DNA from: Nitrososphaerota archaeon
Lineage (GTDB): Archaea > Thermoproteota > Nitrososphaeria > Nitrososphaerales > Nitrosopumilaceae
Reading direction: 5' to 3'
Assembly: GCA_005877305.1 (NCBI GenBank)
Contig: VBPW01000016.1
Coordinates: forward strand, 1-40,504
Length of the DNA: 40,504 nt
The translations under genes and the position numbers were made by a program. This document shows positions 11,437 to 16,427 of the stretch, one piece after another. The notes below the pieces were generated by a model. That model did not search any database. It had not been told where the DNA came from and saw only the letters and a program-made list of their open reading frames with translations. Numbering within the stretch: the stretch's first letter is position 1; each line of letters begins with the position of its first letter.

Positions 11437-11598
11437 ATGTCAGTTGATGTTGTATGTGGAAAATGTGGTGCTAGAATTGTAAACATGCGCATGTTAAAAT
11501 CGGTTAAAGAAGTTATTAGACCATACAACAGTAAATGTCCTTCTTGTGGACAGACACTTTCACCCTCTGAATTTACAGTAGATGTACAGAAAAACTGA
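11437..11598 (+). CDS. Small zinc-ribbon protein (53 aa)
   Basis: The ORF reads MSVDVVCGKCGARIVNMRML and ends SPSEFTVDVQKN, with two CxxC pairs (CGKC at 7-10 and CPSC at 34-37) spaced for one zinc. A TATA box at the leaderless distance and the clean cysteine pattern support a real gene. Function is unknown; such proteins often bind nucleic acid or other proteins. Confidence 0.75.
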   Translation: MSVDVVCGKCGARIVNMRMLKSVKEVIRPYNSKCPSCGQTLSPSEFTVDVQKN

Positions 11599-11665
11599 TC
11601 AAAAATAGTAGTTTAAGGATCAATTTCGTCACAAATCTTATTTACCGATACTATCTAGACATGCC

Positions 11666-13759
11666 ATGGAACTGAGTGAAGACTTTGGCGAGCAGAAGCG
11701 GGGAGGCATTTTACAATCAGCATCAAAACGCGTAAGAATGATCTTTTCGGTAATGGCAAGTCCGAACAGGATCGATATTTTACGTATTTTAAATTCAAAA
11801 GGCCCTCTTACTTATTCAGAATTAAAATCACTTGCAGGATTTAAATCAAAAAAAGAAAGTGGCAAGTTTGCGTACCACTTGAGAAAACTTCTAAGGCAAT
11901 CTCTAGTAGCTCTGAATAAATCTGAAAGGCGTTATACTATTACAAATTTAGGAAAGCTTGTTCTAAGTCTTGCCAGGCAAAATGAAGAACGCTCTATAAT
12001 AGAAAGCGGTAAGATGTATGTACGAACCTCCCACGAATCAATAGAGGAGTTTAACTCACATAAGATAATCCAGTCTCTTGTACGTGAGGGTAGTCTACCA
12101 CTTGAACTAGCCCAAAAAATAACTGAGGAAGTAGAAAACCGCATCTACAAATTTCAAACCTCATACCTTACTGCTTCGGTGATACGTGAAATGGTAAATT
12201 CTGTACTTTTAGAGCAGGGCCATGAGGATTATAGGCACAAACTCGCTAGGTTTGGACTTCCTGCCTATGATATTCATGAAATGATGACAAATGTGGACGG
12301 AATTCATAATGGCGTAGAAGGACTCCTCTTTAAGACCGGTCAGACTGTTTTTGGAGAGCATCTGGTTCTAAATACACTACCAAAAGATGTTGCAGATTCA
12401 CACCTCTCAGGTGATATCCATATAACAAATCCGGGAATATGGTCACTCTTACCAGATACGATCTTTGTAAACATCAAAGAGTTATTAGAAGACGGTATAG
12501 ATCTTCGAGGGAAATTCCTAGGAGTAACAAGGATGCCTCCGATAAATACACTAGGTGAACTTGCTACATCACTATCATTACTCACTTCGTTACTATTCAG
12601 AGAAGCATCACAAGAGGTGATAATGGATGGATTAGTAACAATTTTGCAAAAATATTCAAAAAATCTTGGTGAAGTTGAAGAAAAAATTACAACTGCATTT
12701 GCAGCAACATCAACTGCTCCAAAATACAGTAAAAATGGCACACTTGCTTCCTTTAGAATTCCACTTGGAACTGATTCGAAGTTAATAGGTGCAATACTTG
12801 CTGGTTACAAAAAATATGTAAAATCAACACCAATTCCTTCCATTGGTATTATAATCGACTATGAAAAAGGCAAAGTCAGCGAGTTTTCTGATATACTTTC
12901 TGAAATTGTTGCATTAGGAGGACGTGTAAGCTTTTCAAAAAGCATGGTATCCAATAAAGGAATTTTACGAAGTGATACCAAAACTGCAGGGACTACAATA
13001 AATCTTCAATCACTTTCAATTAACATGCCTAGACTTGCATTTGAATCCAATAAAGATGAAACATACTTTAGAGCACGTCTTGCACTCTTGATGAAGCCTG
13101 CACTTGCAGCAATGTCTCTTAGAAAGAAAGAAATATCCGATCTAACTAGACGTGGACTAAATCCAATTCTTGCAAATAACACACAGTACATGCAAAAGGG
13201 TTCAGTTATCTTAGTAGTCAATCTGATTGGTCTAAAAGAAGCAGTTTTTGGAATACTTGGATATGAAAATGATAAGGCTGGTCAAGAAATACTCTCTAAG
13301 GTCATAGCAACGGCAATAGAGGTATCAGCCAAGAAGGGAAAAGAGATGAGCGATAATGTTACTATATCTATGACTGAAAGCGATGCCGCTGCACGCTTTT
13401 CAGGCTTGGACGGTGAAAAATATGGTAAAATGTCTGTTCTTCAATATGTGGAAGGAGAATCTTATTCCGAAGGAATAGTGTTAAATGCTTCAGAAATTGA
13501 AGGAATGAATCAAAAAACAGACAAAGTTGTAGAAGCTAATCATATGTCAAAGTCACTCAATGGAGGATTGCTAGTACAACTAAAAATTCCTGATAATACA
13601 GATACAGCAGGAATAAAAAAGGCTATAGAAAAAGCAAGTGAACTTGTTAGTTCATTTAGGCCAATAAGAAAGGTGCATATTTGCAGTAATTGTGGTCTAA
13701 AGGAAGAAAAGATCACTGACAAATGTCCTACTTGCAAATCACCATACATTCTTGCCTGA
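11666..13759 (+). CDS. HTH / ATP-cone / NrdD-like protein without catalytic residues; candidate RNR regulator
   Basis: Three parts are seen in order. A winged helix of the ArsR kind (about 20-105: SPNRIDILRILNSKGPLTYSE, then KFAYHLRKLL). An ATP-cone-like region (about 117-205: SHKIIQSLVREGSLPLELAQ, EEVENRIY, YDIHEMM). Then a long NrdD-like domain with GDIHITNPGIWSLLPDTIF and DGIDLRGKFLG, closed by a zinc ribbon (CSNCGLKEEKITDKCPTC). The roughly 675 residues before the ribbon contain no cysteine, and no glycyl-radical motif (RVxG-type) is found near the end, so ribonucleotide reduction is not possible. The next gene is a true class II reductase. Inference: a DNA-binding sensor that reads nucleotide levels through a retired reductase fold, comparable in logic with NrdR (zinc ribbon plus ATP cone). 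Confidence 0.8.
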   Translation: MELSEDFGEQKRGGILQSASKRVRMIFSVMASPNRIDILRILNSKGPLTYSELKSLAGFKSKKESGKFAYHLRKLLRQSLVALNKSERRYTITNLGKLVLSLARQNEERSIIESGKMYVRTSHESIEEFNSHKIIQSLVREGSLPLELAQKITEEVENRIYKFQTSYLTASVIREMVNSVLLEQGHEDYRHKLARFGLPAYDIHEMMTNVDGIHNGVEGLLFKTGQTVFGEHLVLNTLPKDVADSHLSGDIHITNPGIWSLLPDTIFVNIKELLEDGIDLRGKFLGVTRMPPINTLGELATSLSLLTSLLFREASQEVIMDGLVTILQKYSKNLGEVEEKITTAFAATSTAPKYSKNGTLASFRIPLGTDSKLIGAILAGYKKYVKSTPIPSIGIIIDYEKGKVSEFSDILSEIVALGGRVSFSKSMVSNKGILRSDTKTAGTTINLQSLSINMPRLAFESNKDETYFRARLALLMKPALAAMSLRKKEISDLTRRGLNPILANNTQYMQKGSVILVVNLIGLKEAVFGILGYENDKAGQEILSKVIATAIEVSAKKGKEMSDNVTISMTESDAAARFSGLDGEKYGKMSVLQYVEGESYSEGIVLNASEIEGMNQKTDKVVEANHMSKSLNGGLLVQLKIPDNTDTAGIKKAIEKASELVSSFRPIRKVHICSNCGLKEEKITDKCPTCKSPYILA

Positions 13760-13896: not shown

Positions 13897-14010
13897 ATGA
13901 AAATTGTAACGGTGTCAACAAAGTTGATCCAAAGTCAAGCTTTAGAAAAATATTTTTTGCCTCAATCTTTATTTAACTCTCTTTTCTTAGGGTTACGGGG
14001 AGACATTTGA
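13897..14010 (+). CDS. Possible 37-codon leader ORF overlapping the nrdJ start
   Basis: The ORF opens MKIVTVSTKLIQSQ and ends FLGLRGDI. Its TGA overlaps the TTG start of nrdJ as TTGA, the same arrangement as at 3005. The ATG lies about 28 bases after a TATA-like ATTTATTT. It has no known domain. It may be a leader peptide coupling translation into nrdJ, or a chance frame; another TATA-like CTTTATTTA (13966-13974) could start nrdJ directly with a short leader containing GGGGAG. Confidence 0.35.
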   Translation: MKIVTVSTKLIQSQALEKYFLPQSLFNSLFLGLRGDI

Positions 14011-16427
14011 CAGATTTTTCACAAATAGAGAATTCGATCATTGAAGTTAAAAAACGCGATGGACGAGTGTTAAATTTCCAGAAGGACAAAATTTCAAACG
14101 CAATATACAAGGCTTTAGTTGCCTGTGGTAGACCAGAACACAGCTTAGCTGATAAACTGGCAAATCGGGTAATGGAGAAACTTATCAATCAAGGTTATTC
14201 AGCTTCTGGTCCGCCAAGCGTGGAAGACGTACAAGATATGGTTGAATCTACTCTAATAGATGAAGGACTAGGCGAAATTGCCAAAGCCTACATCCTTTAC
14301 AGACATGAACGAAGAAAGATCCGAGAAGAAAAGATGAAGGTTCTTGATGCCAAGTCTCTTGATAGTGTAGCAAAGAAATTTGATCTTAACTGCCTGAGAG
14401 TTTTAGCATCTCGATACTTGATGCGTAACAATAAGGGAACAATAATTGAAAGTCCAAATGAAATGTTTGAACGAGTTGCAGTTTTGGTAGGAATTGGAGA
14501 TTTACTAAAGGACTCTTCTATCTTTGAAGTTGAAGGAAGAAACACACAAAACATAGAGGAAGCTGCAAAATATCTTGACAAACTTGATGACTTTGATTAC
14601 AAATTCAAGATAGGCAAGTATCTTCTTAACAAATGGCATTTTAGATCATTAATCCACCACTACATCGATCTGGCTAAGCGTGGTCAAATGAAGGTGAGCA
14701 TTAAAGAGTTTCTTACTATGCTTGCAGCAAGAAAGTTTGATCAGTATGCAGAGAGAATTACAGAATACTATGACCTGATGGTCTCACAAGACTTTCTACC
14801 AAACTCACCAACAATGATGAATGCGGGGGGTAGACTAGGGCAACTCTCAGCCTGCTTTGTGCTTGCCATGCCTGATGACATGGAAAGAATAATGAAATCA
14901 TCTTCAGATGCAGCATTAATCTTCAAGTCTGGGGGAGGTGTAGGCATCAACTATTCTGACCTCAGAGAAGAAGGAGATATGGTAGCATCAACATCTGGTG
15001 TTGCTTCAGGTCCTGTATCATTCATGAATATCATAAACACAGTGACTGAAGTTGTCAAACAAGGTGGAAAACGACGAGGTGCAAACATGGGAATTATTGA
15101 AGCATGGCATCCTGACATTGAGAAATTCGTTACTACAAAAACAAAACCTGGAGTTTTGGAAAACTTTAACGTAAGTGTTGGAGTTTGGGAAGATTATTGG
15201 GATGCACTTGTAAATTCAAAAGATGGAAAATATGTTCTTCGAAGTCCACGTGATCAATCACATATACGAGAAATAAATGCACACCAACTGATTGATCTAA
15301 TTGCACTTTCAGCTTGGAAGAGTGCTGAACCTGGTCTGATCTTCTTTGATCTTATTAACAAATACAATGTATTTGCAAAAGCTCGTGGTGGACCATTACG
15401 AGCTACTAATCCTTGTGGGGAACAAAGTTTGTATCCTTACGAATCATGCAATCTAGGATCTATCAATCTATCAAACTATGTTAAACGAAAAGCAGATGGA
15501 CAATATGAATTTGATTGGCAAAGATATGAAGAGACAATCCGAAAGACAACAAGATTCTTGGATAATGTTATAGATGTAAACAATTATCCAATTCCTGAGA
15601 TCGATAAGGCGTCAAAGGATTCACGTAGAATTGGACTTGGTGTTATGGGTGTTGCAGATCTACTCTTTAAGTTACGAATTCCATATAATTCACAAGAAGG
15701 TTACGAATTCCAAGAAAAAATTGCTGAAGCACTAACTTACTATTCCATGGAAGAAAGTGTCGCCTTGGCAAAAACACGAGGTGCGTTTTCGTTATGCACA
15801 AAAACAGAATATCCTGAGGGAAAAATTCCAGTAGCTGGATATTATGAAAAACCAAAGAGTACTCGCTGTTATGATTGGGACGCATTAATTGGTAAGATTC
15901 AAAAACATGGTATTAGAAACGTACTAACAACCACTGTAGCGCCTACAGGTACTCTTTCTATGATTGCTGATTGCTCAAACGGAATGGAGCCCATGTTTGC
16001 TTTAGCATTTGAAAAACGTGTGACTGTTGGAAGATTTTTTTATACAAACAAAATCTTTGAAGAGGTTCTCAAAGAACATGGATTGTATAACGATCAAATT
16101 CTAGAAAAGATTGCAAATAACTATGGATCTCTAAAAGGAATTCCAGAAATTCCAGAATGGATGCAAAAAATCTTTGTTACAGCGATGGACATACACTGGG
16201 CTGATCATCTTATGGCTCAAGCTGTATGGCAAAAGTGGATTGGTAATGCAATCGCAAAAACAATTAACATGCCACATGATGTAACAGCTGAAGATATCAA
16301 AGCAGCATATCTGATAGCACATGAGCTTGGACTCAAAGGAATCACGATATTTAGAGATGGTTCAAGACATGAACAAGTCTTACACATGACTGGTGATAAT
16401 GTGAAAAAAACATTCCAAGTTAACTGA
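14007..16427 (+). CDS. nrdJ: Class II (adenosylcobalamin-dependent) ribonucleotide reductase
   Basis: This enzyme reduces ribonucleotides to deoxyribonucleotides using adenosylcobalamin. An N-terminal ATP cone (about 8-100: VKKRDGRVLNFQKDKISNAI) provides allosteric control. The reductase barrel follows, with NSPTMMNAGGRLGQLSACF, the phosphate-binding region SGGGVGINYSDL, the thiyl-radical NPCGEQ near residue 470 and the TVAPTGTLSMIADCSNG motif near 645. The start is TTG at 14007. The chain stops at KKTFQVN, just where the family usually continues into a cysteine-rich redox tail; that tail is found 20 bases later in another frame. The corrinoid adenosyltransferase at 38.7-39.3 kb could supply its cofactor. 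Confidence 0.95.
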   Translation: MTDFSQIENSIIEVKKRDGRVLNFQKDKISNAIYKALVACGRPEHSLADKLANRVMEKLINQGYSASGPPSVEDVQDMVESTLIDEGLGEIAKAYILYRHERRKIREEKMKVLDAKSLDSVAKKFDLNCLRVLASRYLMRNNKGTIIESPNEMFERVAVLVGIGDLLKDSSIFEVEGRNTQNIEEAAKYLDKLDDFDYKFKIGKYLLNKWHFRSLIHHYIDLAKRGQMKVSIKEFLTMLAARKFDQYAERITEYYDLMVSQDFLPNSPTMMNAGGRLGQLSACFVLAMPDDMERIMKSSSDAALIFKSGGGVGINYSDLREEGDMVASTSGVASGPVSFMNIINTVTEVVKQGGKRRGANMGIIEAWHPDIEKFVTTKTKPGVLENFNVSVGVWEDYWDALVNSKDGKYVLRSPRDQSHIREINAHQLIDLIALSAWKSAEPGLIFFDLINKYNVFAKARGGPLRATNPCGEQSLYPYESCNLGSINLSNYVKRKADGQYEFDWQRYEETIRKTTRFLDNVIDVNNYPIPEIDKASKDSRRIGLGVMGVADLLFKLRIPYNSQEGYEFQEKIAEALTYYSMEESVALAKTRGAFSLCTKTEYPEGKIPVAGYYEKPKSTRCYDWDALIGKIQKHGIRNVLTTTVAPTGTLSMIADCSNGMEPMFALAFEKRVTVGRFFYTNKIFEEVLKEHGLYNDQILEKIANNYGSLKGIPEIPEWMQKIFVTAMDIHWADHLMAQAVWQKWIGNAIAKTINMPHDVTAEDIKAAYLIAHELGLKGITIFRDGSRHEQVLHMTGDNVKKTFQVN

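Follow-up and report, generated by a model that had tools for sequence, protein, structure and literature searches.

A winged-helix protein built on a catalytically dead class III ribonucleotide reductase as a probable regulator of archaeal reductase genes

The control of ribonucleotide reductase (RNR) genes is poorly known in most archaea because NrdR, the bacterial RNR repressor, is rare there (PMC9110341, PMC12176259). The window analyzed here, a 40,504-nucleotide stretch from a Nitrososphaerota archaeon of the family Nitrosopumilaceae (GenBank assembly GCA_005877305.1, contig VBPW01000016.1), encodes a protein that resembles a class III anaerobic RNR (NrdD) carrying a DNA-binding head, and the next gene on the same strand encodes a class II enzyme, NrdJ. 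The locus raises the question of what such a protein does beside a working reductase. An earlier note on this DNA had read it as a nucleotide-sensing regulator whose reductase domain cannot be catalytic.

Domain composition and the lost active site

The features of the two genes are as follows.

11666..13759, + strand: open reading frame of 697 amino acids (P0001) with a winged helix, an ATP-cone and a dead NrdD-like region
11741..11965, + strand: winged-helix DNA-binding domain, residues 26-100 (Pfam DUF7347 and HTH_20, above cut-off)
12014..12232, + strand: ATP-cone, residues 117-189 (Pfam PF03477)
12347..13741, + strand: NrdD-like region, about residues 228-692, including a zinc ribbon, without catalytic cysteine or glycyl radical
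14007..16427, + strand: nrdJ, class II RNR with its own ATP-cone, the presumed target (NCBIfam TIGR02504 and Pfam)

The joining of a winged helix, an ATP-cone and an NrdD-like domain, as claimed in the earlier note, is borne out by Pfam matches that all exceed their cut-offs: NRDD (E-value 1.4e-22, strongest over residues 415-692), DUF7347 (2.4e-10; 41 vs 27.6 bits), the ATP-cone (9.5e-9; 36.1 vs 25.8 bits) and HTH_20 (6.9e-8; 32.8 vs 27 bits). The winged helix is of the ArsR type, with GKFAYHLRKLL as its recognition-helix region, and residues G66, F68 and H71 are invariant in alignment A2. The neighboring gene, 247 bp downstream, is indeed nrdJ (NrdJ_Z, TIGR02504, 4.6e-220). A small open reading frame of 53 amino acids with a zinc-ribbon-like sequence lies just 5' of the 697-residue gene (11437-11598, + strand); several related loci show its C-terminal coding part in the corresponding position, and it may share the intergenic control region with the larger gene.

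Homology to NrdD was marginal when the single sequence was searched against the PDB (best E-value 0.22) and became clear with profiles. A 54-member family profile matched solved NrdD structures down to 2.1e-36 (Streptococcus thermophilus NrdD), and hhalign aligned the family with an independently aligned profile of true NrdDs over 572 columns at 100% probability (E-value 8.7e-58). The AlphaFold2 model, built from a shallow alignment, is mediocre (pLDDT 59.1, pTM 0.61), its N-terminal half being the weak part (pLDDT about 28-58); in a Foldseek search with it, class III RNRs nevertheless fill the first 36 places and class I and class II RNRs come next. By profile comparison and predicted structure, the NrdD fold is thus present, and the assignment of residues 228-692 to NrdD is secure.

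An active-site alignment of 78 non-redundant homologues with 35 true NrdDs (34 encoded in the phylum's genomes, plus that of Escherichia coli) separates the two groups. Cysteine occupies the position of E. coli C175 in all 35 true NrdDs and in none of the 78 homologues, and that of C384 in 35 of 35 as against 1 of 78; glycine at the position of G681 is found in 34 of 35 true NrdDs and in 4 of 78 homologues. The glycyl-radical motif RxxGY near the C-terminus, present in 34 of 35 true NrdDs, was found neither in the window protein, which stops short of the glycyl-radical loop position, nor in any homologue examined; the lone true NrdD without it (from locus L168) ends before that region. Against TIGR02487, the NrdD equivalog, the window protein scores 74 bits, below the curated cut-off of 326 bits. 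The claimed non-catalytic nature of the reductase domain therefore extends to the family, and no orthologue with intact residues, which would have marked the window gene as a decayed copy, occurs among the 78.

The protein has only four cysteines (673, 676, 687 and 690), all within the C-terminal zinc ribbon, whose cysteines are retained by about nine in ten homologues; the ribbon derives from NrdD, and its role is probably structural. The cysteine-free stretch ahead of the ribbon is real in the window protein; as a family trait it does not stand, as it is shared by only some members, and others carry scattered, non-conserved cysteines. The conserved trait is the loss of the catalytic cysteine and glycine positions, not a total absence of cysteine. 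As to the proposal that the old substrate and effector sites are kept, the ATP-cone and a structural core are retained, the latter including the NLPR motif, R577, D582 and Y600, but most other residues invariant in true NrdDs are lost in the order, and retention of the substrate sites is doubtful from the alignment. In a maximum-likelihood tree, a quick one with long branches, true NrdDs and the family fall on the two sides of one branch with support of 100. Since the true NrdDs, including that of E. coli, lie together on one side, a single loss of catalysis would be the simplest reading.

Conservation, distribution and genomic neighborhood

A relative of the protein is present in 94 of 101 genomes of the window's order, and in 67 of the 70 good ones, usually as a single copy. 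In 300 genomes sampled from the phylum, diverged homologues that share the layout of helix-turn-helix (HTH), ATP-cone and NrdD region (about 545-840 residues) occur in many further families, several lineages being shortened to 545-650 residues; many other genomes of the sample have no homologue or are matched through a true NrdD only. Many of the outer lineages that carry the protein are, in our reading, probably Bathyarchaeia-like. This wide distribution in the order and the phylum rules out contamination or a one-off gene. An origin from a mobile element was also rejected: the phage search found no homologue, a scan of IMG/VR with the family profile returned two partial matches only, and the sole plasmid match was a true nrdD on a Methanomethylovorans plasmid. 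Directly upstream of that plasmid-borne nrdD lies a gene for a 668-residue protein (L221, NC_019972.1, 339-2345) that has no significant Pfam match and is unrelated to the family.

Purifying selection on the gene is strong. Compared with three congeners that are 94% identical, the whole gene has a dN/dS of 0.05-0.06. The HTH part has 0.00, the ATP-cone no more than 0.01 and the NrdD region about 0.07-0.08; nrdJ, taken as a comparison, has about 0.06-0.08. The HTH and ATP-cone half holds 17 of the 22 columns that are invariant in the 54-sequence alignment. Because the ratio is low and the invariant columns are massed in that half, the pattern of conservation fits neither a working nor a decaying reductase. 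In one single-contig genome the gene is split by a stop (G005:C1:1756001-1758075, locus L122), which could be either a real loss or a sequencing error, and in genus g15 (G018, G035, G050) the protein has diverged and its zinc ribbon is gone.

In the family Nitrosopumilaceae, nrdJ is the next downstream gene on the same strand in all 88 assessable loci, a set that includes many near-copies and was left redundant, mostly about 200-250 bp away. Among 41 non-redundant representatives of the order it adjoins the gene in 39, the two exceptions (G018 and G035) both belonging to g15. Outside the order, nrdJ lies downstream in one locus (L149), and a true nrdD lies directly downstream in eight genomes of four families (G152, G164, G176 and G207; G192 and G202; G155; G225); in two loci (L144 and L174) a glutaredoxin-like gene sits between the two. 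Most non-order genomes have the gene without an adjoining RNR gene, often near pyrB or pyrI. The RNR linkage suggested for the window is thus found in other genomes and extends to a second class: as the neighbor is nrdJ in the order and a true nrdD in other families, the gene accompanies a working RNR of either class.

The true NrdDs found beside the dead protein are of a second type, with the motif R[IV]TGY (L144, 7269-9477, and L174, 7817-10016, in gene-strand coordinates; the downstream open reading frame of L156), and the L156 and L197 enzymes carry an ATP-cone similar to that of the dead protein.

Candidate control elements and a proposed mechanism

Two elements near the gene pair are candidate binding sites on the evidence of their sequences.

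11628..11644, + strand: promoter element GTCACAAATCTTATTTA, consensus GTCAYAARTCTTAWTTA (part of it TATA-like), lying about 21 bp ahead of the start codon of the 697-residue gene
13908..13927, + strand: conserved inverted repeat of operator-like form, AACGGTGTCAACAAAGTTGA (TCAA-N5-TTGA), 99 bp upstream of the start of nrdJ

The consensus GTCAYAARTCTTAWTTA has exactly one match in each of 12 genomes, in every case just upstream of the dead NrdD gene, and reversed-pattern controls gave no match in these genomes. Motif discovery in 32 regions upstream of nrdJ recovered AACGGTGTCAA-N5-TTGA, mostly about 90-100 bp before the start, with a log-likelihood of 219 vs 61-69 in shuffled sets, a statistic that related sequences inflate. 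The motif scores at least 11 in 27 of the 32 regions and is missing in five, from five lineages. In the window's own genome its core matches upstream of no gene except nrdJ; with one mismatch allowed it is no commoner than the reversed control in most genomes, and so alone it defines no regulon. The inverted repeat was also considered as an operator common to both genes, and it is absent from the upstream region of the dead NrdD gene itself. In genus g15 the nrdJ motif is missing along with the RNR linkage. This co-loss counts for little: it happened once, and the motif is missing from five other lineages as well. The DNA upstream of the dead NrdD gene holds GATC boxes at about five times the density of the remaining intergenic DNA in the loci; as possible autoregulatory sites they are suggestive only. 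Up to nine such boxes per 200 bp occur in this region in L029, L037, L046, L065 and others.

The ATP-cone is the putative sensor. Across the family R120 is conserved in 78 of 78 homologues, F129 in 77, E127 in 76 and T169 in 75. In NrdR, mutants in V48, K50, E56 or K62 bind nucleotides less well and no longer bind DNA (PMC9110341); by our own reading of the motif, R120, E127 and K133 would correspond to K50, E56 and K62. Only two ATP-cone genes were found in the window's own genome (87% complete), the dead NrdD gene and nrdJ, and NrdR (TIGR00244) had no match there. In the phylum sample, NrdR matches above the cut-off are confined to one family, f18. In six f18 genomes (G158, G170, G182, G197, G213 and G231) the gene that immediately follows NrdR is a true nrdD of the RVVGY type, and the same genomes encode the dead NrdD protein elsewhere.

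Taken together, we propose, with a probability of roughly 0.75, that the protein is a transcription regulator of RNR genes derived from an entire class III reductase that is catalytically dead. The earlier reading of a nucleotide-sensing regulator is upheld in this form by the set of domains, the family-wide dead site, selection and RNR adjacency. The protein probably senses nucleotide levels and switches the adjoining RNR gene, both its nucleotide binding and its DNA binding being inferred. In the proposed mechanism, the ATP-cone would do the sensing and the winged helix would carry the response to DNA; the NrdD region would dimerize as in NrdD and act as a scaffold that may include an effector site. 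Binding of ATP or dATP in the ATP-cone would alter the oligomeric state or geometry, such that the paired winged helices could or could not bind near the nrdJ promoter, with 13908-13927 as the candidate site and the protein's own promoter (11628-11644) perhaps as a second target. If NrdR is a guide, the protein would most likely repress nrdJ at high dATP. For the family as a whole, across the window's order and many families of the phylum, we lean towards an archaeal group of transcription factors that take the place of NrdR: an entire dead class III RNR, together with its ATP-cone and perhaps an effector site at the dimer interface, would sense the dNTP pool and regulate the RNR on which the cell relies, whichever that is. 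Counted against the regulator reading are the weak N-terminal half of the structural model, the gaps in the nrdJ motif and its absence from the promoter of the dead NrdD gene, the location of most non-order genes away from RNR genes, the losses in g15 and the split gene in G005.

Other explanations and comparison with known systems

The protein could be a broader regulator of nucleotide metabolism, for example of pyrimidine synthesis, with RNR genes as only part of its regulon; members outside the order often have no adjoining RNR gene, and among 37 non-order representatives pyrB is nearby in 15 and pyrI in 11. In the order, however, the link to nrdJ is almost exceptionless and pyrB is near in only 12 of 41 representatives, and we regard this broader role as possible but unlikely. 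Action at the protein level, as a decoy or allosteric partner of NrdJ or NrdD with the winged helix serving protein contact or autoregulation only, would account for the retained RNR fold and ATP-cone and for a gene that adjoins that of the enzyme. It would require two different partners, since the neighbor is class II NrdJ in one group and class III NrdD in others, and the HTH is among the best-conserved parts; such a role seems improbable.

The state of the NrdD region itself could be explained in two further ways. A few core residues are invariant (N453, P455, R456, D582 and Y600), as might be expected if the barrel had been re-purposed for another, non-radical nucleotide reaction with regulation secondary. 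The same positions are equally invariant in true NrdD; the rest of the barrel is less conserved than any other part of the protein, which several lineages have shortened, and this leaves the reading very unlikely. Simple decay of an old NrdD, with the nrdJ adjacency a leftover of an ancient operon, agrees with the missing catalytic residues and with a gene broken in at least one genome, but the low dN/dS and the near-universal presence in the order contradict a pseudogene, and the catalytic loss is common to all 78 homologues with the N-terminal half best preserved. We consider decay extremely improbable.

No description of this architecture was found in the open-access literature (most subscription papers lay outside the scope of the search), and a helix-turn-helix fusion goes unmentioned in two large surveys of the RNR family (PMC9531940, PMC9669993). 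If the proposal is correct, an abundant archaeal group, the ammonia oxidizers and their relatives, would have a dedicated and conserved RNR regulator, and the protein would show plainly how an essential enzyme can become the sensor that controls its own successor. It would also remove a misreading, as annotation by similarity could assign to aerobic ammonia oxidizers an anaerobic RNR that is unable to work.

Among known systems, NrdD is the homologue, with which the family shares the fold, the ATP-cone, the NLPR motif and the C-terminal zinc ribbon; unlike NrdD, the family lacks the catalytic cysteine and glycyl radical and carries at its N-terminus a winged helix that none of the 35 true NrdDs shows. 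NrdR resembles it in combining a DNA-binding domain with an ATP-cone, in its linkage to RNR genes and in ATP-cone determinants that are largely conserved (PMC9110341). NrdR, however, is about 150 residues long, binds DNA through an N-terminal zinc ribbon and has no reductase domain, and because this zinc-ribbon architecture is absent from the 697-residue protein, the analogy is one of function and not of membership. The DNA-binding head matches ArsR-type winged-helix regulators (HTH_20, DUF7347) above the Pfam cut-offs; to our knowledge, typical members of that group have neither an ATP-cone nor an NrdD region. PurR of Bacillus subtilis has a phosphoribosyltransferase-like fold unrelated to RNR and senses PRPP; like the protein described here, it joins a winged helix to a catalytically inactive enzyme fold, in its case one from the pathway under its control.
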